From Candidatus Eiseniibacteriota bacterium (GTDB taxonomy: Bacteria > Orphanbacterota > Orphanbacteria > Orphanbacterales > Orphanbacteraceae), in the NCBI GenBank assembly GCA_024276995.1, contig JAJRWB010000066.1, positions 1-15,953 of the forward strand: DNA of 15,953 nucleotides, given 5' to 3'. Made by a program: the position numbers and the translations under genes. The stretch's first letter is position 1. Every line of letters starts with the position of its first letter. Under the pieces are notes generated by a model that made no database searches, was not told the DNA's origin, and was given only the letters and a program-made list of their open reading frames with translations. This document shows, one piece after another, positions 4,203 through 15,953 of the stretch.

Positions 4203-6395
4203 ATGGATGACCTGAGATTCCTGGAGCGAAGCTACGAGGAGCTTACGCGTTTCCTGCGGAGCCGATCGGCTTCCGGCGCGCGGCTCCTCGCGATCTCGCG
4301 CTTCATCGAAGAGATTCCGTCGGATCTGCGCGGGGGGAAGTACTATCTCGAAGAGCTGGCGCCCGCTTTTGACGCGGCGCTCCACGAAATCGACGGCGAT
4401 CTGAGGGATCCGGAGGTGCTCCGCCTCGCGGACGCGGCATTCGAAGCGCTCTCGTCCGCCGGTCTGCTTCCACCGGAAGCCGTCGCTCCCGCGGCGCTCG
4501 ATGCCGGCACACCGATCACGAGCGGGCCCGCCGGGCATTCTCCCGCCCAGATCCATGTCGTCGTTCCGCTGGTGCGGGAACTCCCTCCCACGCTCGCGCA
4601 GGGAGGCGGGATCCACGCCGCCGGCTCGATCGTGGAGATCACCGCGATCCCGCGCGCGGCCCGCTGGAGGCGCCCCAAATTCCGATGGAACAACGGCAAC
4701 GTCGAGGAGGCGGTAGGCGATCTCCGTTCGCTCCACGATGTCACCGCCGACGCCCTTCTCGCGGCGAAGGAGGCGGTAACGTCGCGCTCCCGCGGACTCC
4801 GTAGAAGCACGGAGCCGTTGTCCGCCGTCGCCTTCGACTTCTCCCTCCCCGAGAAGGTGATCCCCGTGGTGGGCGACTCGGCGGGCCTCGCTCTCGCCGC
4901 AGCCGCCGCGTGTGTTTATTCCGGCGCACTCAAGGGACGCGCTCCCCGACGTATACTCCCCGGTGTCGCCTGGACCGGCCGCGTCGAACCGTCGGGTGAA
5001 GTGAAGCCCGTCGATTCCGTCACGCTCAGGGCGAAACTTCGCGCCGCGTTCTTCGCGGGGCGAAGGACGTTCGTCCTCCCACGCGGCCAGGGAATCGCCG
5101 CCGCAAAGATCCTGCAGAGCGACAACCTCGCCATGAAAATCATCGAAGTCGGACACGTCGCGGAAATCTTCGATCATGAAACTCTTTTCAAGCCGTGGAG
5201 CTTTCCCCCCGAACTCGTCCGCTTCCTCAAGTTGCGTCCGTTCCGGCGCGCCTTCCGGCGCGTCACCGTCGCGGCCGCGCTCCTCGGCATCATCTATGCC
5301 GCCCCCTGGCTGGCGGAACTTGCCGGCGTTCACTTCTACACATGGTGGCACCCCGCCCCGGAGTGGGCGAAAGCGCAGGTGGAACTACTCGACGAGCTCT
5401 ATACGATCAAAGTCGATGTGCCCGGTCTGGAGCGTCCGATCGTGATCCACGAGAGCGCCCAGGTGGCGTTCACCCAGATCGTTCCCGACCTCGATGTTGG
5501 CGGGCCGGGCAAGGTGTACCTCGTCTACGGATGCAGCTGGGGAACGCGCGACCCGAGCCCCGGTAAAGTGATCGCCTTCGACCTGGAAGGAGAGAAGCCG
5601 CTCTGGACGTACGTGCTCACGTCCACGGGTCTCCCTTACGATCCGTGGGGCGACGATGTCGAAGGGACTCTTTCGGTGAAAACGGGGTGCGCGGGCGACG
5701 TGGACGGCGACGGCCGCTCCTAAGTGCTCGTCATCGGAAGCCTCCAGCCGTGGTCGCCCACGTTCCTCTGGCTTTTCGGCGGTGACGGCCGCCCGCGCGG
5801 GGTGCTCTTTCATATGGGGCATCTCGAATACCTCACCATACGCGATCTCGACGCCGACGGTGTCCCCGAAATCATCATCGAGGGAATTCACAACGCGAGC
5901 AACGGTCTGAGCCTGATCTCCCTTCATGCCGATCAGCTCGAACCGTTCCACGAGGAAGGCGCACCCGTGTCCAACAGCGCCGCTGGTGAATCCGCCTCTT
6001 CATGGAACCCGGAAGCGCAGCCGTGCGATTTCCACATGATCATCCCGATGATCCCCGGTCTTTCCGAGGTGGAAGGCCGGCCGAATCTCGGGGTCAAGCG
6101 GGAATTGTCGTTCCTCCCCGCGCACGACGGATGGTATAATACAGAGGTCGATATCAATGTTCTCATAGGAGCCAGGAACACATCCGACTACATCTTGACC
6201 GTCAATCCGCGGGGCGAGGCGGTAGGGATCTACGCCAACGCGCCACTCGCCGAAAGAGCGCGCTACTGGCTCTCGGAAGGGCTGACCGATATCGATTTCG
6301 CGTCCGCCGAAGTGATGGAGAAGTGGATCCGCATGGCCCGAACGACCGACACGATACGACTCGACTGGAAGAGTGACGGGGAGACTTCGCGTTGA
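4203..6395 (+). pseudogene. Lon-like (S16) protease domain, membrane segment and FG-GAP-like repeats, interrupted by an in-frame TAA
   Basis: One continuous frame of 731 codons including the final stop, broken only by TAA at 5721-5723 (codon 507). Residues 1-100 are helical. Residues about 140-330 resemble the Lon proteolytic domain: GDSAGLALA with Ser226 corresponds to the DGPSAG motif, and the TGRVEPSGEVKPV...LRAKLRAA segment places Lys278 at the catalytic-lysine position, so the Ser-Lys dyad looks intact. There is no AAA+ ATPase part. A hydrophobic stretch at about 354-373 is a likely membrane helix. Beyond it lie beta-propeller-like sequence and two Ca-binding FG-GAP-type loops (DVDGDGRS and DLDADGVPE). 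The TAA replaces the position where GDGRSE is expected, which fits a GAA to TAA change. If real, translation ends at residue 506 and the second loop (5724-6395) is lost, unless there is read-through or reinitiation (GTG at 5724). GGAG about 9 nt upstream supports the ATG at 4203. Confidence 0.7.
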
Positions 6396-7054
6396 CACTT
6401 CCCGCCGCCACCGACTGGAATCTCATCGTCCGCGGCTGTATCGACGGCGACCGTCTCGCGTGGGAAACGCTCGTCTCCGCATCACGCCCCATGATCATCG
6501 GCGTGCTTCACCGCCGCATCGGCGACGTGGAAATCGCCCGCGATCTCGCCCAGGACGTTTTTCTCCGCCTCGTGGAAAACGGCTGCCGCCGCCTTCGCGC
6601 CTTCGACCCGGAGCGCAACGTACCGCTCCTCTCCTACCTGCGCGTGATCGCCGTGAACCTTTCGATCGACTGGAGCCGCGGCCGGCACGCGAAGGCGCGC
6701 GGACGGACGATCGCTCTCGAAGAACTGGTCGATCGTCTCGTCGAACCGCCGTGCGTGGAGAAGCTCCTCGCCGCCGGCGCCGTCCACGACGCGGTGGAGG
6801 AACTCCCCGATCGCGAGCGACTCGCTGTCCGGTTGATGCTCGACGGACTCAAGACGAAGGAGATCGCGCGGATCATGGGGCTTTCGGACGGAGGGGTATC
6901 GGCGCTCCATTTCCGGGCACGCCGGAAGCTCGCGACGCTCCTCGAAGGAGGTTGGGCGGATCCAGGCTCGGCGGGCGGCGATGCGCGACCCGCCCACCGC
7001 GGGGCGAACTCCGAGCACACGAAGAATCGTTCCGCGGGGGGGGCATCCGAATGA
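6392..7054 (+). CDS. ECF-type RNA polymerase sigma factor (sigma-70 family)
   Basis: 220 residues from a TTG start whose last two bases overlap the upstream TGA (TTGA), implying translational coupling. Region 2 lies at about 25-97: helices around RDLAQDVFLRLVE, then PLLSYLRVIAVNLSIDWSRGR, the usual core-binding and -10-recognition segment. Region 4 lies at about 132-185: AVEELPDRERLAVRLML, then the helix-turn-helix LKTKEIARIMGLSDGGVSALHFRARRKL, which reads -35 elements. The last 35 residues are low-complexity, Gly/Ala/Arg-rich. Its place directly behind a predicted membrane protease domain and ahead of a zinc-finger protein suggests a regulated sigma/anti-sigma system. Its target promoters are not evident here. 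Confidence 0.9.
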   Translation: MTLPAATDWNLIVRGCIDGDRLAWETLVSASRPMIIGVLHRRIGDVEIARDLAQDVFLRLVENGCRRLRAFDPERNVPLLSYLRVIAVNLSIDWSRGRHAKARGRTIALEELVDRLVEPPCVEKLLAAGAVHDAVEELPDRERLAVRLMLDGLKTKEIARIMGLSDGGVSALHFRARRKLATLLEGGWADPGSAGGDARPAHRGANSEHTKNRSAGGASE

Positions 7055-7178
7055 CCGGCCGGCACAACACCTCCGCCGGCACAGCGTATCGATTCGAGGA
7101 CGCGGTATCGAGGTTCACTTCGTACATAATAATAGAAGGAGATGCGACAAAGAGGCGCGACCGGAGACTCAGGGAATC

Positions 7179-7820
7179 ATGAGCGAACATCTGACAGACT
7201 TCGAGATCCTCCTGGTATCGACCGGAAAAGCGAGCCACGGGGCGCACCAAGCGCTTCTCGATCACGCCGCCGATTGCGACGATTGCCGAGAACGGCTGGC
7301 GGAGTGCGCACGCGAACAGATCACCGCGGAGGAGATCGACTGTGCGCGCGAAGCGGATGCGGCCGCATCTCCCGGCGGGGATGATCCGGCGGCGATCCGG
7401 AAGATCGTAGACGCCGTTTCCCGGAGGCACCGGCAAATCGGGCCGGATACCGCCGGCGAGGGCGAGAGGGTGATCTCCCTTTATGAGGACGCTCCCGAAG
7501 AGAACGACGCCTCGTACGCGCTCGCAGCCAGACCCAAGCGCTCCGCCCCCGATTCTCTACCGGTTCTTCGATCGGCCGATGGCAGACTCGTGGTCCGCTT
7601 CCGAAATGTGCAGGAAGGTGACGGCTACCGCGCCTACATCATCGGCGACCTTCCCGGTACCGACGCGGACATCCGGGTCGCCTTTCCTCACCGGGATCTC
7701 GAATTCCCGGTTGACGAGAAGGGAAAGGCCGACCTTCCCGGTATCACCATCGAGGACCTCCCCCAGGGGACGATCCGGATCGGCCTGCGTCCCGGCGGTG
7801 GCGAAGGGGAAAGAGAATAA
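7179..7820 (+). CDS. Soluble zinc-finger (ZAS-like) putative anti-sigma factor
   Basis: 213 residues. The N-terminal 50 residues contain HAADCDDC, the H-x3-C-x2-C core (H29, C33, C36) of zinc-binding anti-sigma (zf-HC2) domains, with a further His at 20 or 23. Unlike most of the family there is no membrane helix. After an acidic, charged middle (50-120), a beta-rich C-terminal domain follows (LVVRFRNVQEGDGYRAYIIGDLPG ... EDLPQGTIRIGL), which might sense a ligand. It lies 124 nt behind the sigma factor gene, so it may have its own promoter; two GTATCGA copies (7086 and 7105) stand in that gap. The ATG at 7179 has a modest AGGGA upstream; the strong AGAAGGAG at 7134-7141 is not placed for it. 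The role as anti-sigma is inferred from motif and context. Confidence 0.75.
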   Translation: MSEHLTDFEILLVSTGKASHGAHQALLDHAADCDDCRERLAECAREQITAEEIDCAREADAAASPGGDDPAAIRKIVDAVSRRHRQIGPDTAGEGERVISLYEDAPEENDASYALAARPKRSAPDSLPVLRSADGRLVVRFRNVQEGDGYRAYIIGDLPGTDADIRVAFPHRDLEFPVDEKGKADLPGITIEDLPQGTIRIGLRPGGGEGERE

Positions 7821-8069: not shown

Positions 8070-8969
8070 ATGGAATTGATAAACGACCTTCACTTCGGTC
8101 CCGGTCTATTCGATGCCGCCTCGCCGTCGGGGGGCGCACTCCCCGCGCGACAGATGAGCCTGTGGAGCACCGTGAGCGACGAAGACGATGGTGGGCGCGA
8201 CTCGGCCGACGCGATCGTCGAAGCGTGTCTCGGCTTCGGGTGGGAGACGCGCGGCGGGGCGGAGGAAATCTTCGCGGGGCGGTACGAGGAGTTCGTGCGC
8301 ACCGCCGGCCTCGACCGGCGCGTCCGGACGGTGATTCGCGTGGCGGAAGCGGCGGAGGCGGGCGAGGGCTCGGCGCTCTCGCTCCTCCCGTTCATTCTCG
8401 CCGACCCGGCGCGGCAGGTGATCCACACGGCGGCGCTCGAAGCGACGCTCCTCGTGCCCATGGCGGACGGAGATCCGTTGACCGGCCCGCGCACGCTTCT
8501 CGCCTTCGCCGATACTTTCTCCGCCGGACACGCCCGCGCCGGCATCCTCGGCGGTCTCCTCCTCCTCGGTGACAGGCGCATCCTCCCGCTCATCCGCGAG
8601 GAGCGATGGAGGCTCGCCCCCGCCGGACGCTCCATGCTGATGGAGGCGTGGTCCGGATACGCCCTCGCGGCGCAGATCGACTTCCTCGTCGACTGGCTCG
8701 AGGACGCACCCGAGTACGACTTCGGCGGGATCGTCGCGGCACTCGCCGCCATCCCGGAACGGGCTTCTCACTCGGCGGTGATCGACGTCGAACGGCGCTT
8801 CCCGCGGCGCTGCGGCGACGACGACGGCCCGCCGCTCATCATCACCGCGCGGTGGTCGATCGAAGAGTACGCGGCGATTCTCGCCCCGCGGCTCCTCGAC
8901 CTCCACAGGCGGGAAACACCGCCGCGTACGCTGCAGCTGGCGCTCGACGCCTGGGGGATCCGCCGATGA
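8070..8969 (+). CDS. Uncharacterised helical protein coupled to the HIRAN protein
   Basis: 299 residues, not recognised. The sequence is mostly helical, with HEAT-like alternation in the middle (ALSLLPFILADPARQVIHTAALEATLL; ARAGILGGLLLLGDRRILPLI; AAQIDFLVDWLEDAPEYDFGGIVAALAAIPERA), and Arg/Glu/Ala-rich. There is no signal peptide, membrane helix or catalytic motif that I can name. A purine-rich GGGGAGAG stands immediately before the ATG, rather close; the in-frame TTG at 8076 would be better spaced. The stop overlaps the next gene's ATG (ATGA at 8966-8969), so the two products are made together and may act together. HEAT-like scaffolding is a guess. Confidence 0.75.
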   Translation: MELINDLHFGPGLFDAASPSGGALPARQMSLWSTVSDEDDGGRDSADAIVEACLGFGWETRGGAEEIFAGRYEEFVRTAGLDRRVRTVIRVAEAAEAGEGSALSLLPFILADPARQVIHTAALEATLLVPMADGDPLTGPRTLLAFADTFSAGHARAGILGGLLLLGDRRILPLIREERWRLAPAGRSMLMEAWSGYALAAQIDFLVDWLEDAPEYDFGGIVAALAAIPERASHSAVIDVERRFPRRCGDDDGPPLIITARWSIEEYAAILAPRLLDLHRRETPPRTLQLALDAWGIRR

Positions 8970-10600
8970 AGACCCGGAAGAAGACGACGCGAAAGAAGCG
9001 CCCGGCCCGCGCGCCGGTGACCACCTCCCGCGCGGGCGACCGCTACCTCGGCGGAATCCGCACCACCATCGTGGGGACGCAATACTGCGACGTTTCCGTT
9101 CGCCCGGGAGAGATCGTTCACTTCGAAAGAGAATACGATAACGAACATGATGCGAACGCGATCCGCGTGGAGAACGACGACTTCGCGCCGGTCGGTCACC
9201 TGCCCCGGCGGGAGGCGCGCTGGATCGCGCCTCTCCTCGACGGCGGGAAGCTCAAGATCGCCGGCCACGTTCCGAAGGACGCCGCCCCCGGCCGATACGA
9301 CGCCCCCATCGTGCTCGACCTCCACCTCACCCGAAAGGGGAGCGGCATGCTCTCGTCGTCCGATCGGTGCGCCACCGAGGCGCAAGCGCTTCACGAGACG
9401 GTGCTCGCGGCGTACGAGCGGTCGGCCGCGTGGAGATCGCGCCGCGCAGTCACCGGAGTGGCGCGACGCCTTACGAAAAGCCTTGGCCGCGACGCGCTCC
9501 CCGATACCTATCTCGTGCTGAAGCTCTTCGAAGTACGCGCCGAAGAACTTTCGGTTCGCCGTCGCACCGAGGAGAAAGCGCGGATCCGCGAGACGATCCG
9601 CTCCCTTCGCGTGGGAAAAGCCGCCTTCTTCGACGGGTTGACCCTCTTCCCCCTCTTCGGAAAACGAGGACACCGACCGGACTACGATCTCCTCGCCGAC
9701 GCCCTCAGGGAAGAAACCGCCGCCGTCACCGAGATTTCGGCGGAGGGGCGTGTAGGCGAACTGAAGGTGGTGAACCGCGGAACGCGCCCGATCCTGATCC
9801 CCGAGGGGGAAATCATCATGGGCGGGAAGCAGAATCGGGTGATCAACATCACGGTGATCGTCGAGCCGTGCACCGAGTTCATCGTACCGGTGTCGTGCGT
9901 CGAGCAGGGGCGATGGGGCGACCGCGGAGACCGGTTCCGCACGAGCTACTTCGCTGCGCCGAGCCTTCGGTCGGTGAAAGCCGCCTCGGTTCACGCATCG
10001 ATGCGCTCCAACGGGACGGCCCGAAGCGACCAGGGCGAAGTGTGGCGCCAGGTGGACGCCTCGCTCGCCGGCGTGGGCGCCGACTCACCCACCTGTTCGC
10101 TCCCCGACGGCTACGCAAAAGCGACCGAACGCCTCGAAGGCTACCGCCGGGCGTTCGACCTCGAAGAGGGGGCCATCGGATTCCTTGCCGCTCGGGGCGA
10201 CCGGATTCTCGGCGCCGAGCTGTTCGATGCACCCGAAACGCTCGCCACTCTATGGCCGAGACTCTCGGAGAGCTACTTCCTCGAGAGCGTGATCCGCCGG
10301 GAAACGGAAGCGACCGGGAACTTCGCGCATGCAGGCCGTGTCCGAGCCGCCCGCCGTCCCGGCCGGGCCGGGAACTCCGAGCGACCGACGCCGAAACCGC
10401 GAAAGGCGCTCCGCAGGACGGCGACCGATTTCCTCGAAGCGCTCAGCGTCAGTACCGTCCCCGCCGAAGGGGCGAGCGCCTGGCCGGGCCAACTCGCCGT
10501 GGAGATGGAGACCCACATCGGCGGCGGCCTCTTCTATGATGACCGGATCTGCCATCTCGGCGTGTTCCACAAGCCGACCGGAGCCACCGGCGAAGAATGA
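8966..10600 (+). CDS. HIRAN domain fused to an ARPP-1-like domain
   Basis: 544 residues from the ATG inside the upstream stop; a far upstream frame opening at 8606 is a shadow. Residues 1-25 are a basic tail. Residues about 26-125 form a HIRAN-type domain: YLGGIRTTIVGTQ, a GEIVHFEREYDNEHDANAIRVEN segment close to the family pattern REP-N-D-NAI, and VGHLPRREARWIAPLLDGG. HIRAN domains bind DNA ends in fork-remodelling proteins such as HLTF. Residues about 215-535 resemble the ARPP-1 family (found near ADP-ribosylglycohydrolases and rhodanese-phosphatases): LTLFPLF, LKVVNRGTRPILIPEGEIIMGG, then QNRVINITVIVEPCTEFIVPVSCVEQGRW, and a C-terminal HIGGGLFYDD. A Lys/Arg-rich linker (455-485) splits it. 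No helicase or nuclease motif is present. DNA-damage or nucleotide-modification stress is a reasonable context, but the function is unknown. Confidence 0.8.
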   Translation: MKTRKKTTRKKRPARAPVTTSRAGDRYLGGIRTTIVGTQYCDVSVRPGEIVHFEREYDNEHDANAIRVENDDFAPVGHLPRREARWIAPLLDGGKLKIAGHVPKDAAPGRYDAPIVLDLHLTRKGSGMLSSSDRCATEAQALHETVLAAYERSAAWRSRRAVTGVARRLTKSLGRDALPDTYLVLKLFEVRAEELSVRRRTEEKARIRETIRSLRVGKAAFFDGLTLFPLFGKRGHRPDYDLLADALREETAAVTEISAEGRVGELKVVNRGTRPILIPEGEIIMGGKQNRVINITVIVEPCTEFIVPVSCVEQGRWGDRGDRFRTSYFAAPSLRSVKAASVHASMRSNGTARSDQGEVWRQVDASLAGVGADSPTCSLPDGYAKATERLEGYRRAFDLEEGAIGFLAARGDRILGAELFDAPETLATLWPRLSESYFLESVIRRETEATGNFAHAGRVRAARRPGRAGNSERPTPKPRKALRRTATDFLEALSVSTVPAEGASAWPGQLAVEMETHIGGGLFYDDRICHLGVFHKPTGATGEE

Positions 10601-11183: not shown

Positions 11184-11213
11184 TTGTCGGAAAAGAAAAC
11201 GGGGTGCTATAGT
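11184..11213 (+). promoter_or_regulatory. Promoter P2 of the peptide/regulator operon
   Basis: TTGTCG (11184-11189, 4 of 6), an 18-nt spacer and TATAGT (11208-11213, 5 of 6). The start would be near 11220, about 55 nt ahead of the ATG at 11275, where TAGGAG supplies the RBS. Its downstream half (GGGGTGCTATAGT) resembles that of P1 (GGTGTGCTAGAGT). Confidence 0.6.
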
Positions 11214-11274: not shown

Positions 11275-11547
11275 ATGAAACAGATCCGAAACCTTTCGAA
11301 CTCCCTCCTTCCATTTCTCGCGATCACCCTGGCACTCTGTATTTTCACCCTCGCCGCCCTGCCGGCGACGGTCGGCGCATTTCCGCGGCCGCTGCAGCTC
11401 CTTGAGGTTCAAATGCCAGGAGATGACGATCCGGATCACCCATTTCCTCTCACTGACGGGGAACATCAGGCTTCTGAGGTGCAGGTTGACGACTCAGTCT
11501 CCCAATCAATCGGATTGGTATTCCGGATTTTGGATATTCTCCTATAG
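11275..11547 (+). CDS. Small predicted exported peptide (90 residues) ahead of the TPR regulator
   Basis: Not a recognised family. The N-terminus is a textbook Sec signal peptide: MKQIR, then a hydrophobic core at about 11-33 (LLPFLAITLALCIFTLAALPA) and a small-residue cleavage site, T-V-G-A before F36. The mature part of about 55 residues is acidic (PGDDDPDHPF and EVQVDDS) and ends in a hydrophobic segment, SIGLVFRILDILL. A good RBS (AGGAG) and P2 support expression. It is followed within 10 nt by a 48-codon ORF and then the TPR-sigma54 regulator, so it is likely co-transcribed. A role as an exported signal read by the TPR regulator is attractive but unproven. GC drops from about 72% in the end of the signal-peptide segment to about 50% right after it. 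Confidence 0.7.
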   Translation: MKQIRNLSNSLLPFLAITLALCIFTLAALPATVGAFPRPLQLLEVQMPGDDDPDHPFPLTDGEHQASEVQVDDSVSQSIGLVFRILDILL

Positions 11548-11556
11548 AGGGTAAGC

Positions 11557-11703
11557 ATGGCTGTTACTTGGGAAAAACTTAGAGGAGCGCGGTTGGTTCC
11601 CCATAGAATCGACGTTATTGGAACTCGCCTTGGAATATCTCGTGACGAGTTCGAGACATTTCTTAATGGCTTCCGGCGATCAAGCGGACCGAATTCGAAT
11701 TAA
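11557..11703 (+). CDS. 48-codon ORF, possibly the original N-terminus of the TPR regulator
   Basis: MAVTWEKLRG through SSGPNSN, ending at TAA 11701-11703. AGAGGG about 6 nt upstream is a fair RBS. Residues 18-41 (IDVIGTRLGISRDEFETFLNGFRR) look like a helix-turn-helix. The frame is identical to that of the following regulator, whose GTG start (11710) is only two codons past the TAA and has no clear RBS. Either this is a separate micro-protein with coupled translation of the regulator, or the regulator once began here and the TAA is a nonsense change. Base composition matches the regulator's low-GC N-terminal part. Confidence 0.5.
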   Translation: MAVTWEKLRGARLVPHRIDVIGTRLGISRDEFETFLNGFRRSSGPNSN

Positions 11704-11709
11704 GATCTC

Positions 11710-14565
11710 GTGAACGATGCACCGATTCGCTTGAATAACCCTAGTCACCTGATCCGCGCATGGTGCCTAGCAGGAGTCGGCAGACTGAACGAAGCTCTAA
11801 CTCTTTTGGATCGATTCGACCTAGACGACCCACGTGTACCTACTTCGTATTTCTACTCTAGCCTTGATCTTCGGTTTCGAATTCTTAACTACCAAGGTAA
11901 GTATAAGTTAGCCTCCAAGATGGGACCTCTCCTCCTTACCGGATGTCGGAGATCCGTTTCTGATGAGGCACTTTCTCCATTACTGGGACTAGGAACGGCT
12001 TATCTTCGCATGGCAAGAAACCAAGAGGCTCTTGAAGTTTTTGCACTTGTTAGCTCTGTTGCGAACTTACACTCGAATACCGTTCTACATGTTTGGGCTC
12101 TCAATAATATATCGATCGCATATAAGAATGTTGGCGATCTTAATTCGGCAAATAGCTACATCGAACAAGCCCTTGATCTGAGTAGGGATATGTCTCCAGA
12201 CGAGCGCAAGAACCTTTTTAACACTGCCGGGATCTTGGCTTTTTGGCAAGGTGACTTCAAGAGATCTCTAGTTCATTCTCGAAAATGCCTGAAGCAGTCA
12301 GAAGCTGCGTCAAACTATGTTTTACAAGCGAGCAGCGGGTTAGCTATCGGCCGAACGTTAACCTATATGCTTGACTATTCTCAAGCTCAAGAATATCTCT
12401 CCACGGCCCTCCAATCTGCCATTAAGCATGAGCTCCCTCGCGAAGAAGCCCTTGCATACGAGTTTCTCGGTGACCTGGAAAGAGCACTCGGCAAGACCGA
12501 CGAGGCCGGAGAGTATTATCGAAAAGGAATGGAAATATCCGAGCGCATCGCTCCGCGAACGCTGATGACCACCGAACTCGGTCGTCGGATCGCCGACTGG
12601 CATATCGACCGGGGCGAGTACACCGAGGCACGCGCGGAATTGGAGCAGGCTCTCGAAATCGCTCTTGAGATCGGCGACAAGCGCGAGGAAGCGATCCTCT
12701 ATCGCGTCAAGGCGCGGCTGATCGTCGCCACGAACGGCCGTGTTCAGTCGGCGGAAGCCGCCTTGAAGAAAAGCATCGAGATCATGGGGGGCATGGGCGC
12801 GCGATACGAGGAGGCTCTCTCGCGGGCGGCGCTCGGCCGGCTGAAGGTCGGCGCCCCGCGGAAGGGGCGCGCGACGAGGCTCGAGGGAGTGGATGATCTT
12901 TGTGCCGCGGCCGCCACGTTCGGCGAACTGGAACTTTCGGAGCGCCAGGCGGAGCTGCTCATCGAGACGGTGGAACTGGGCGAAGGTGTACTCGAGCCGC
13001 ACGATAGTCTCGGCATGCTCCACGAGGCGGAGATCGCTCTTCGTCCCCTCCGCAGGAACCGAAACGGCGACGGCGGGCGTGCCGACAAGATGATGGAGAA
13101 GATCGCCTCCCTTCGAACCGAGTTCGAAACAGAGATCGCACGGCGCGCCACGAATACCGATCCCGAGCCGATCGCTCGTGGCGGCAACGGGAACGATGAC
13201 TCGCACGCCGACCGCCTCCTTCGATCTCTCTCCCGCCGGCTGTCGGCGAAGAAGGCGTTTCTCTATCTTCGCCGTTCGCTCGAAGGGCCGCGCACACTCG
13301 GCTGTTGCACCGGAGACGCGCTCCCCGCCCTGGAGCGGCTCGCCTTTTCCCCCGACAAGGAGCTGATCGTCTCCGCCGGGGATCTCACGGGCGAGGGGAG
13401 CGAGTGCTACGGTCCTTTCGTCGCCTATCAGGGATTCGATTCGGAAGGTGTGGTCTACATGGAGCGCGCTCTCGGCTCGAAACCGTTCACCGAGCAGGAG
13501 GCGGCGGAGTTCGCCGCGTGCAGCGCCCGTCTACTCCGCCGCATCCCTCCTCCCGTGCAGGGTGAAGGGGACGGCGTCTTCCCGCGCGTGGTGACGCGCA
13601 ACAGCGCGATGCGCGATCTGATCGACCGGATCGCTTTCCTCCGCAATTCGAGCGCCAGCGTTCTGATGCGCGGCGAGACGGGAACGGGCAAGGGGCTTTT
13701 CGCACATCTTCTTCACGACCTGGGGGACCGCGCGCGCACCGGCTCGTTCGTCCAGGTGCACTGCGCCGAGTTCCCGGAGACACTGATCGAAAGCGAGCTT
13801 TTCGGGCATGTGCGCGGGGCGTTCACCGGGGCGTTCACATCGAAACAGGGGCTCGTCGAAAAGGCCGACGGCGGTACGCTCTTTCTCGACGAAGTGGGCG
13901 ATCTCAGCCCGACGGTGCAGCTCCGACTTCTTCGCGTCATCGAGGAGAAGCGGCTGAAACGGGTCGGCGAGGCCCGCGACCGGGAGGTCGACATCCGCAT
14001 CATCGCGGCGACCCATCGCAACCTTGAAATGGAGATCGAGCGGGACAATTTCCGCGAGGATCTCTACTACCGGCTGAACGTGGTCACCCTCATCATCCCC
14101 CCGCTGCGCGACCGTCGCGAAGACGTGCCGCTTCTGGCGGAACACTTCCTCTCGCTCTACGCGTCGGCGGAGGGGAAGAGCGCCCCCGGAGTGAGTGCGG
14201 AGACGATGCGCCGGTTGAAGCTCTACTCGTGGCCCGGGAACGTCCGGGAGCTGCAGAACGAAATCCGCCGCCTCGTGGCGATCCTCCCGGCGGGGGCGTC
14301 GATCCAGCCGTCCGACCTGTCGGAGCGGATCCTGCACAACGGCAAGGCTTCCCGGTTCCTCCGCCGCCCCGGGCAGCTCTCCTTCCAGGAGCAGGAGAAC
14401 AACCTGCAAGACGCCCTCGATTCGCTCGAGCAAGAGTGGATCCGCGAGGCGCTCATCGAGGCGAAGGGAAAGGCGAAGGCAACGGCCCGCATCCTCGGCA
14501 TCTCACCGCAGCTCCTCCACTACAAGATGAAGAAATACGACTTCGCGGCGGTCGACCTCGACTGA
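11710..14565 (+). CDS. TPR / GAF-like / sigma54-activator AAA+ / Fis-HTH regulator
   Basis: 951 residues from GTG 11710 (or about 1002 if it began at 11557). Residues 1-430 are tetratricopeptide-like helices (GVGRLNEALTLLDRF, GDLNSANSYIEQALDL, RGEYTEARAELEQALEIALEIGDKREEA). Residues about 495-613 resemble a GAF sensor. Residues about 625-870 are a complete sigma54-activator AAA+ domain: Walker A GETGTGKG (655-662), the sigma54-contacting GAFTGA loop (703-708), Walker B LFLDE (D727/E728), the ATHRN sensor, REDLYYRLNV arginine-finger segment and WPGNVRELQNE. The C-terminus (908-943) is a Fis-type helix-turn-helix (ATARILGISPQLLHYKMKKY). With GAFTGA intact it should activate RpoN promoters; none was found nearby. 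Base composition breaks at about residue 277, from about 46% GC to about 65%, inside the TPR part, suggesting recombination. No receiver domain, so the TPRs/GAF are the likely sensors. Confidence 0.92.
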   Translation: MNDAPIRLNNPSHLIRAWCLAGVGRLNEALTLLDRFDLDDPRVPTSYFYSSLDLRFRILNYQGKYKLASKMGPLLLTGCRRSVSDEALSPLLGLGTAYLRMARNQEALEVFALVSSVANLHSNTVLHVWALNNISIAYKNVGDLNSANSYIEQALDLSRDMSPDERKNLFNTAGILAFWQGDFKRSLVHSRKCLKQSEAASNYVLQASSGLAIGRTLTYMLDYSQAQEYLSTALQSAIKHELPREEALAYEFLGDLERALGKTDEAGEYYRKGMEISERIAPRTLMTTELGRRIADWHIDRGEYTEARAELEQALEIALEIGDKREEAILYRVKARLIVATNGRVQSAEAALKKSIEIMGGMGARYEEALSRAALGRLKVGAPRKGRATRLEGVDDLCAAAATFGELELSERQAELLIETVELGEGVLEPHDSLGMLHEAEIALRPLRRNRNGDGGRADKMMEKIASLRTEFETEIARRATNTDPEPIARGGNGNDDSHADRLLRSLSRRLSAKKAFLYLRRSLEGPRTLGCCTGDALPALERLAFSPDKELIVSAGDLTGEGSECYGPFVAYQGFDSEGVVYMERALGSKPFTEQEAAEFAACSARLLRRIPPPVQGEGDGVFPRVVTRNSAMRDLIDRIAFLRNSSASVLMRGETGTGKGLFAHLLHDLGDRARTGSFVQVHCAEFPETLIESELFGHVRGAFTGAFTSKQGLVEKADGGTLFLDEVGDLSPTVQLRLLRVIEEKRLKRVGEARDREVDIRIIAATHRNLEMEIERDNFREDLYYRLNVVTLIIPPLRDRREDVPLLAEHFLSLYASAEGKSAPGVSAETMRRLKLYSWPGNVRELQNEIRRLVAILPAGASIQPSDLSERILHNGKASRFLRRPGQLSFQEQENNLQDALDSLEQEWIREALIEAKGKAKATARILGISPQLLHYKMKKYDFAAVDLD

Positions 14566-14871: not shown

Positions 14872-14895
14872 GCCCCCCATGGGGGGCGATTTTTT
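14871..14895 (+). terminator. Intrinsic terminator just upstream of the IS3-type transposase
   Basis: CGCCCCCC AT GGGGGGCG (14871-14888) is a perfect palindrome, followed by ATTTTTT (14889-14895). This is a strong Rho-independent terminator pattern on the plus strand. It would stop transcription coming from the regulator side before the transposase; insertion elements often protect themselves in this way. It also contains the ATG at 14879, which therefore is an unlikely start. Confidence 0.75.
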
Positions 14896-14926
14896 CATCC
14901 AAATCGGGGGCATGGGAGGTTCCGGC

Positions 14927-15475
14927 TTGGCGGAATACACGGCAGGTTTCAAATCGCGCATGATCGAACGGATGGCCGGAGCGGAGGGGATCTCGGCGAC
15001 GGCGCTCTCTCGGGAAATGGGGATTTCCCAGTCGACGTTATCGCGCTGGCTTCGCGGAGCGGGTATTGTGGAGAGCATGAAAAAGAAACAGGGAACCCAC
15101 CGAGCCCGCAGTCCACGTCAGTGGACGGCGGAAGAGAAGCTCCGCGTGGTGCTGGCCACAGCGGAATTGACCGGAGAAGAGCTGGGAGCGTACCTCCGGC
15201 AGGAGGGGTTGCACCAGGCCCAGCTCGACCGGTGGCGGTCGGCTGTCGCCGAGGCGCTTTCCGGTCCGGACAAGCAAAAGCGCAAAGCCGCCCTGAAGGA
15301 GGCCCGGAAGATCAAAACCCTGGAGAGAGAGCTGCGGCGCAAGGACAAGGCACTGGCGGAGGTGACCGCTCTTCTGGTGCTAAAAAAAAGTTGGAAGCAC
15401 TTATGGGGGACGGGGACGAAAGCACCACCACGAGGAAAGGGACATGATTCTGGGCCTCATACTGGAAGCCCTTGA
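14927..15475 (+). CDS. IS3-family transposase OrfA
   Basis: 182 residues from a TTG start with GGGAGG about 7 nt upstream; ATG 14912 and ATG 14879 are alternatives in frame, the latter inside a terminator hairpin. The N-terminus (LAEYTAGFKSRMIERM) and a helix-turn-helix at about 19-45 (SATALSREMGISQSTLSRWLR) are typical of IS3 OrfA. A coiled-coil, Lys/Glu-rich C-terminal region follows (KTLERELRRKDKALAEVTALLVLKK). In the family the end usually reads LKKKLEAL; here that sequence is in the -1 frame beyond an A8 tract at 15382-15389, and in that frame the stop is at 15445-15447, overlapping the orfB ATG. The unshifted frame runs on to 15475. OrfA binds the ends and regulates transposition. Confidence 0.85.
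   Translation: MAEYTAGFKSRMIERMAGAEGISATALSREMGISQSTLSRWLRGAGIVESMKKKQGTHRARSPRQWTAEEKLRVVLATAELTGEELGAYLRQEGLHQAQLDRWRSAVAEALSGPDKQKRKAALKEARKIKTLERELRRKDKALAEVTALLVLKKSWKHLWGTGTKAPPRGKGHDSGPHTGSP
15382..15389 (+). other. A8 slippery tract in orfA
   Basis: Eight A's in CTAAAAAAAAGTTGG. Reading one base back (or transcripts with nine A's) restores the family-like C-terminus KKKLEALMGDGDE and a stop overlapping the orfB start (ATGA at 15444-15447). Either programmed slippage or a one-base deletion. Confidence 0.6.
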
Positions 15476-15820
15476 GGGAGGAGCGCGGTTGTCGAAAGCG
15501 TGTGAGATCCTCGGTCTGAAGGAACGCACTGTGCAGCGGTGGCGCGCGCAGGGCATCGGCGAGGATCGCCGCTGTGGTCCGCGCAGAGCACCGAGCAACA
15601 AGCTGAGCGCCACGGAACGCTCGAAGATTCTTCAACCCGTCAACCGACCTGAGTATCAGGACTTGAGCCCGAAGCAGATCGTTCCGTTGCTGGCCAACCG
15701 GGGAACCTACCTGGCCTCGGAATCCACGATCTACCGCATTCTCCGACAGGAAAATCAGCTGACGCACCGGGCCGCCTCGGCACCACCCCGGAAACGATAC
15801 TGCCCCACCGCCTACACCGA
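15444..15820 (+). pseudogene. IS3-family transposase OrfB, truncated by an IS256-type element
   Basis: The ATG at 15444 opens MILGLILEALEGGARL, with a helix-turn-helix (LSKACEILGLKERTVQRWRAQG) and the second recognition segment (LSPKQIVPLLANRGTYLASESTIYRILRQ) leading to APPRKRYCPTAYT, where the family's integrase core normally begins (W-x-W-D-I-T). Instead the sequence changes to the end of another element at about 15821, so all DDE residues are missing. About 125 codons remain of roughly 270-300. The frame happens to stay open to the window end through the foreign DNA. No active transposase can come from this copy. Confidence 0.8.
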
Positions 15821-15953
15821 GGAGTTATGGTCAAGAGTTGTGTATGAACCATCAGGCGGCGACCTCCTCGACACGATCGACGAACTTCACACCCTCAATA
15901 ACTTTGGCAAGCAGTTCATATCCATTGAGTTTCCTCCATCGCTTCTGAGCGCA
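15821..15953 (-). mobile_element. 3' end of an IS256 (Mutator)-family element
   Basis: The minus strand carries the C-terminus of an IS256-type transposase, and 15821-15850 is the short non-coding end between its stop codon and the disrupted orfB. The likely terminal sequence, read on plus, starts GGAGTTATGGTCAAGAG. The other end and the 8-9-bp target duplication typical of the family lie outside the window. Confidence 0.7.
15852..15953 (-). CDS. IS256-family transposase, C-terminal fragment
   Basis: Minus strand, 33 residues and a TGA stop (15854-15852): AQKRWRKLNGYELLAKVIEG, then VKFVDRVEEVAA. The pattern K-x-W-R-x-L-N-G-x-x-L-[LI]-x-x-V-I-x-G-V-x-F-x-D is the usual end of IS256/Mutator transposases. 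The catalytic part lies beyond the window edge. Confidence 0.75.
   Translation of the reverse strand, partial: CAQKRWRKLNGYELLAKVIEGVKFVDRVEEVAA

Follow-up and report, generated by a model that had tools for sequence, protein, structure and literature searches.

A gene for a small exported propeptide lies directly upstream of a gene for a tetratricopeptide repeat (TPR) sigma54 activator in a DNA stretch of 15,953 nucleotides from Candidatus Eiseniibacteriota bacterium (GCA_024276995.1, contig JAJRWB010000066.1, forward strand). This whole stretch is called the window below. Peptide-TPR-sigma54 pairs of this kind look like an unrecognised peptide signalling family in several little-studied bacterial groups. 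The pairing is the rule, is exclusive both ways and is not a coincidence.

Pairing of exported peptides with TPR-sigma54 regulators

Homologous TPR-sigma54 activators were found in 7/7 genomes of the window's phylum and in 7/8, 18/20 and 42/47 genomes of three further phyla, with more in other families. The region upstream of the regulators was examined by a strict scan, which accepted an open reading frame (ORF) of 65-135 aa with a hydrophobic N-terminus, a basic residue there, and a stop codon at -130 to +60 nt from the regulator start. Such a signal-peptide ORF preceded 43 of 46 full-length TPR-sigma54 regulators, compared with 2 of 54 other sigma54 activators and none of four kinase-fused TPR-sigma54 proteins (Fisher p=3.5e-22). 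Among other genes used as a control, 10 of 194 qualified. The strict scan missed the window pair and L173 only through start-codon choice or threshold, and both count on inspection. With later sets, about 100 of 103 regulators were directly preceded by a signal-peptide ORF of 70-135 aa; many loci come from related species, and neither this count nor the strict one is a series of independent trials. Among the approximately 103 regulators, the divergent L191 clearly has no peptide gene upstream, and L228, with two regulators, offers only a dubious candidate for one of them.

The reverse search was carried out with a profile built from 21 peptides and run on the seven genomes of the window's phylum. 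It gave 29 matches below E=1e-4, and those that could be placed adjoin TPR-sigma54 regulators or sit at contig ends. A clear score gap followed, and the next matches were pieces of other, mostly large ORFs. BLAST with the window peptide returned weak matches only (E 0.2-0.3), three of which later turned out to lie next to paralogous regulators, as their cognate peptides. A scan of genome contigs returned AAA+ relatives only. The initial annotation had suggested a peptide-receptor system, to be abandoned if homologous regulators consistently lacked an upstream exported peptide or if the peptide was conserved without the regulator. Both points were checked in the searches above and came out in its favour, and the pairing proved much more general than a single sequence could show.

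The pair stays together across varied genomic contexts, and in one of the four phyla 3-5 parallel paralogous pairs are present per genome. The gap between the two genes is 9 nt in the window, counted from ATG 11557; the family median is 50 nt, with a range from overlap to more than 100 nt and most values within about 110 nt. A short exported ORF in this position would also suit a SecM/VemP-like leader or arrest peptide that controls translation of the regulator. However, the gap varies over the whole of that range, and no conserved C-terminal arrest sequence was found, the C-terminal residues varying within orthogroups. Arrest peptides of known type require a specific sequence at their C-terminus. 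We therefore consider translational arrest a very improbable explanation.

Anatomy of the propeptide

The features of the peptide gene in the window are as follows.

11184-11213, + strand: sigma70-type promoter candidate, TTGTCG, 18 nt, extended (TG) -10 TATAGT (weak in the scan; block conserved)
11275-11547, + strand: exported propeptide, 90 aa (ORF, hydropathy, homologous pairs in relatives, peptide-profile match)
11275-11379, + strand: predicted signal peptide, residues 1-35 (hydropathy and a site like that of signal peptidase I (SPase I), crude predictor)
11419-11448, + strand: acidic core GDDDPDHPFP, residues 49-58, candidate signal (family motif, near-invariance within orthogroups)
11497-11544, + strand: hydrophobic C-terminal tail, last 16 residues, reaching the stop codon (z 2.9 against the shuffled mature part)

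The initial annotation had described a 90-residue protein with a signal peptide, a hydrophobic C-terminal tail and its own promoter. The description of the protein is borne out by hydropathy, the SPase I-like site and the z value of the tail; the predicted signal peptide has a basic N-terminus, a hydrophobic core and a plausible cleavage site, TVGA^F. The promoter fared less evenly. The consensus scan by itself did not exceed chance (2 found where 1.2 were expected), but a CTTG...TGCTAnnGTA block and an AGGAG Shine-Dalgarno sequence are kept in the orthologs L098 and L099, which belong to two other genera, and this conservation makes a sigma70-type promoter upstream of the peptide ORF credible.

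Across the family, the peptides have a median length of 106 aa (range 70-135), and many slightly exceed 100 aa. They share a layout of SPase I-like signal peptide, short acidic core, variable linker and, usually, hydrophobic tail. The core, G[DE]xD or, in another branch, xPWD, occurs in 70 of the 88 nonredundant mature parts, compared with 10.6 ± 2.8 in shuffles (maximum 21 across 1000 shuffles). It is near-invariant inside most well-sampled orthogroups and differs between them: GDGDIPE in clade C, GGGDPDNPVP in clade D, VDPDGLEG in clade B, GDDDRWG in f70 and GDPDIVEG in f135. The surroundings of the core and the sequence of the tail drift inside orthogroups while the core does not, suggesting that the internal acidic core, rather than the C-terminus, is the best candidate for the specific signal. 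The C-terminal 10-15 residues, proposed earlier as the ligand, are probably not the best choice.

The main rival reading is an export or envelope monitor, in which the TPR domain binds unexported precursor, by its signal peptide and/or tail, when the precursor accumulates because Sec or the envelope is impaired. Neither import nor a cell-to-cell signal would be needed, the pairing and the covariation reported below would fit equally, and the tail indeed retains its hydrophobicity despite sequence drift. However, the best conserved part of the peptide is the acidic core of the mature region, which is orthogroup-specific, and the parallel paralogs within one genome are hard to square with a general monitor. 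We regard this reading as rather improbable.

The regulator and its translation start

The regulator and its parts are located as follows.

11557-11703, + strand: N-terminal regulator segment, 48 codons, ended by an in-frame TAA (same frame; aligns with ortholog N-termini)
11710-14565, + strand: TPR-(GAF)-AAA+ sigma54 activator with Fis helix-turn-helix (HTH), 951 aa from GTG (Pfam, motifs, GAF in relatives)
11710-13150, + strand: TPR solenoid, about 10 repeats, residues ~1-430 (Pfam TPR families including TPR_12 and TPR_MalT; all-helical low-confidence model)
13591-14091, + strand: sigma54-interacting AAA+ domain, residues 628-794 (PF00158, Sigma54_activat, E=5e-63)
14416-14538, + strand: Fis-type HTH, residues 903-943 (PF02954)

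An AAA lid was also assigned by Pfam to residues 800-880. The Walker A, GAFTGA, Walker B and sensor motifs are all intact. An AAA+ domain with Walker A/B and GAFTGA, a C-terminal HTH and RpoN in the genome together identify the protein as a sigma54-dependent enhancer-binding protein. Relatives have a GAF domain between the TPRs and AAA+, and the window copy has a GAF-like region there. The domains given in the initial annotation were thus confirmed by Pfam and motifs; the GAF domain had been missed.

The true start is very probably ATG 11557 rather than GTG 11710. The ATG follows the peptide stop after 9 nt and has a GAGGG Shine-Dalgarno sequence, and GTG 11710 is without a good one. The 48-residue segment begins MAVTWEKL and aligns with ortholog N-termini such as MSSTWDKI and MQGKWEDI, so the protein most likely begins with it. 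After codon 48, an in-frame TAA at 11701-11703 separates it from the 951-codon ORF. Either this copy is damaged, or there is an assembly error at the TAA, or translation restarts at GTG 11710.

Two further stops were noted. A second TAA in the window, at 5721-5723, splits another otherwise conserved gene, and the own-genome paralog L032 (G000:C80) has a TAG within its AAA+ domain; each may reflect sequence error or decay.

The window copy could be a pseudogene in decay, in a family that otherwise functions, a reading to which the TAA at 11701-11703, transposase genes from 14879 and the TAG of L032 would all be suited. However, no damage is seen in the other 951 codons or in any AAA+ motif, the linker in which the stop falls is poorly conserved, GTG 11710 offers a possible restart behind it, and the second TAA, in another protein, means that assembly base errors are possible. 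Decay of this copy is a serious prospect, though on balance unlikely.

Covariation of peptide core and TPR domain

The similarity of the cores was compared with that of the regulators across 92 pairs, with AAA+ similarity removed (partial Mantel test). The correlation was 0.34 for the N-terminal TPRs, 0.28 for the middle and 0.23 for the C-terminal TPRs, with p=0.003 for each part, the smallest value possible with 300 permutations. For the GAF domain the partial r was 0.05 (p=0.11). Several strongly conserved polar residues of the solenoid (N197, K204, E317, R358 and R398 in L100 numbering) occupy canonical groove positions.

In the window's clade, recognition parts may have been exchanged. 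The end of the peptide and the N-terminal TPRs form one unit:

11450-12450, + strand: low-GC diversified module (GC 0.44-0.49, compared with ~0.65)

The N-terminal TPR third is 29-36% identical among orthologs, compared with 50-60% in the next TPRs, and its GC at third codon positions is 0.45, compared with 0.77-0.86. The drop is clear in three of four clade members and mild in L097. The peptide core varies too in this clade, and the other clades show neither feature. The divergent N-terminal TPRs and core may be a recognition unit that has been exchanged, much as in pherotype systems.

These data also bear on whether the peptide is instead a target or effector, a small envelope protein co-transcribed with the regulator, whose TPR or GAF domain senses something else. 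GAF domains of related activators bind small molecules, a GAF domain is present here, and the operon arrangement by itself would fit co-regulation. However, core similarity follows the TPRs and not GAF, and the pair is kept together in varied genomic contexts. Moreover, the promoters conserved upstream of the peptides in clades A and D are of the sigma70 type, and this does not mark the peptide as an obvious target of sigma54. An effector role seems quite improbable.

Sigma54 promoters adjoining the regulators

A -24/-12 scan just downstream of the regulators found 39 strong sites on the sense strand and 0 on the antisense strand. The position and spacing of these sites are coherent by lineage. 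In the G200 phylum the site mostly lies ~195-260 nt past the regulator, ahead of a structured RNA (L240-L267, L174/L175; for example L245 and L258). This RNA has a CGGAGGGGGGGACCTCC hairpin, a long closing stem, some compensatory changes and, in most f269 members, a T-run terminator; the predicted sigma54-dependent RNA matched no Rfam family at the gathering threshold. In f135 and f67 the site precedes a gene for an alternative sigma70-family factor (Pfam-confirmed for L171), with less uniform spacing. In 4/5 genomes of clade C, a group within the window's phylum, a gene for a sensor histidine kinase follows the site after 42-44 nt (Pfam-confirmed for L101). In clade B (L031, L102-L105) the site lies, again in 4/5 genomes, 72-74 nt before a gene upstream of the peptide; the product is a single-pass membrane protein of 62-72 aa with ARFCAVNAGW, and this family has no Pfam match.

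A sigma54 promoter before the clade D peptides was also suggested by the scan and was rejected, since the alignment conserves a sigma70 TTGACA instead. An exact-consensus sigma54 search of the own genome found 2 sites, with 1 in controls, which tells little either way. In clade E (L142, L146 and L147, also in the window's phylum), a conserved non-coding block was observed ~210-420 nt past the regulator, after a TGGCAC element; it contains CCACCTCCTGCCCTCCTCA, which is anti-Shine-Dalgarno-like.

A possible peptide-receptor circuit

We propose a two-gene peptide-receptor module that works like the RRNPP systems and has a sigma54 output, a reading we consider probable. A sigma70-type promoter would drive the propeptide and the TPR-GAF-AAA+ activator as one operon. 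The propeptide would be exported by Sec and cut by signal peptidase, and a fragment around the acidic core would act as the signal. This fragment would re-enter the cytoplasm, most likely through oligopeptide import as in RRNPP, and bind the concave face of the TPR solenoid. Binding would either activate or silence the AAA+ ring, and the sigma54 promoter at which the regulator would act is usually one adjoining its own gene. An RpoN and at least one OppA-type protein were found in each of the seven genomes of the window's phylum.

Several observations weigh against this proposal. In the window's own clade, the scan turned up no sigma54 site next to the regulator, and the window regulator carries the in-frame TAA. 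OppA is common and is not specific evidence for re-import. The covariation of core and TPRs may carry shared ancestry that the AAA+ correction leaves behind, and groove positions as a class were not significantly more conserved (p=0.16). Single-sequence AlphaFold gave a mean pLDDT of 59 for the TPR domain alone and of 52 for a tethered mature peptide-TPR construct with two stops read through, in which the docking was not usable.

Directly downstream of the window module, IS-type transposase genes occupy 14879-15953; they may have displaced its target.

A wider claim, which we put at slightly less than an even chance, is that these pairs are a hitherto unrecognised core class of peptide communication, separate from RRNPP, in several deep bacterial phyla. 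A TPR-GAF-AAA+ protein would sense a Sec-exported propeptide with a conserved acidic core and directly switch on a neighbouring sigma54 promoter; in one large phylum the product would be a new structured small RNA, and specificity modules (pherotypes) would be exchangeable in the window's clade. In the literature searched, peptide signalling through cytoplasmic TPR receptors is reported only from Firmicutes and their phages. A near-universal pair with sigma54 output in at least four other phyla would, if true, make the TPR-peptide strategy far more widespread, open a first way into the regulation of lineages apparently without genetics and be a source of ready peptide-receptor-promoter parts. 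The conserved cores of 7-10 residues open the ligand hypothesis to testing with synthetic peptides.

Other genes of the window

Elsewhere in the window, 1139-2236 encodes a protein whose C-terminus is a YPNPFNPST-type sorting-like domain, a type typical of the FCB group of phyla. The interval 6392-7820 holds an ECF sigma factor and, behind it, a probable anti-sigma factor with a CDDCRERL motif, and 8606-10600 encodes a protein with HIRAN and ARPP-1 domains.

Comparison with known systems

The published RRNPP signature comprises a propeptide of 10-100 aa, Sec export, a receptor of 250-500 aa, TPRs, and genes -60 to 400 bp apart (PMC10075063). The window pair agrees in four of these five points (propeptide size, predicted Sec export, TPRs and gene adjacency) and departs in receptor size, with 951 aa. 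RNPP-specific Pfam and NCBIfam models gave nothing above cut-off for the regulator, AimR scoring 12.7 bits with a cut-off of 70. Because receptor size, homology and effector differ, the pair is not classed as RRNPP, though it may work like one. A literature search, with most subscription journals and all preprints outside its reach, found no matching system described. The absence of Pfam, NCBIfam and literature matches supports the initial suggestion that a TPR receptor with a sigma54 output is a new pairing.

The likeness to RRNPP(A) (Rap-Phr, NprR-NprX, PlcR-PapR, Rgg-SHP and AimR-AimP of Firmicutes and phages) lies in the Sec-exported propeptide gene beside a TPR protein gene, the several parallel pairs per genome and the short candidate signal. 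The f135 core GDPDIVEG even resembles NprX SKPDIVG (PMC5641580), probably by chance. On the other hand, the receptors here have ~950-1040 aa, with GAF, sigma54 AAA+ and C-terminal Fis HTH domains, instead of the 250-500 aa of RRNPP(A). In the pairs seen the peptide gene is always upstream, the conserved core is internal and not C-terminal, and the lineages lie outside Firmicutes.

The LuxO-sigma54-Qrr circuit of Vibrio (PMC10162802, PMC4878744) is similar in that a sigma54 activator switches on a structured small RNA; in the G200 phylum, the promoter predicted for the RNA is next to the gene for the regulator. However, LuxO is a response regulator that takes its input from membrane kinases, whereas a TPR-GAF protein and an adjacent exported peptide are found here. 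With GAF sigma54 activators of the NorR/FhlA/NifA type the regulator shares the GAF-AAA+-HTH core, to which it adds a solenoid of about ten TPRs and a nearly obligate exported-peptide partner.

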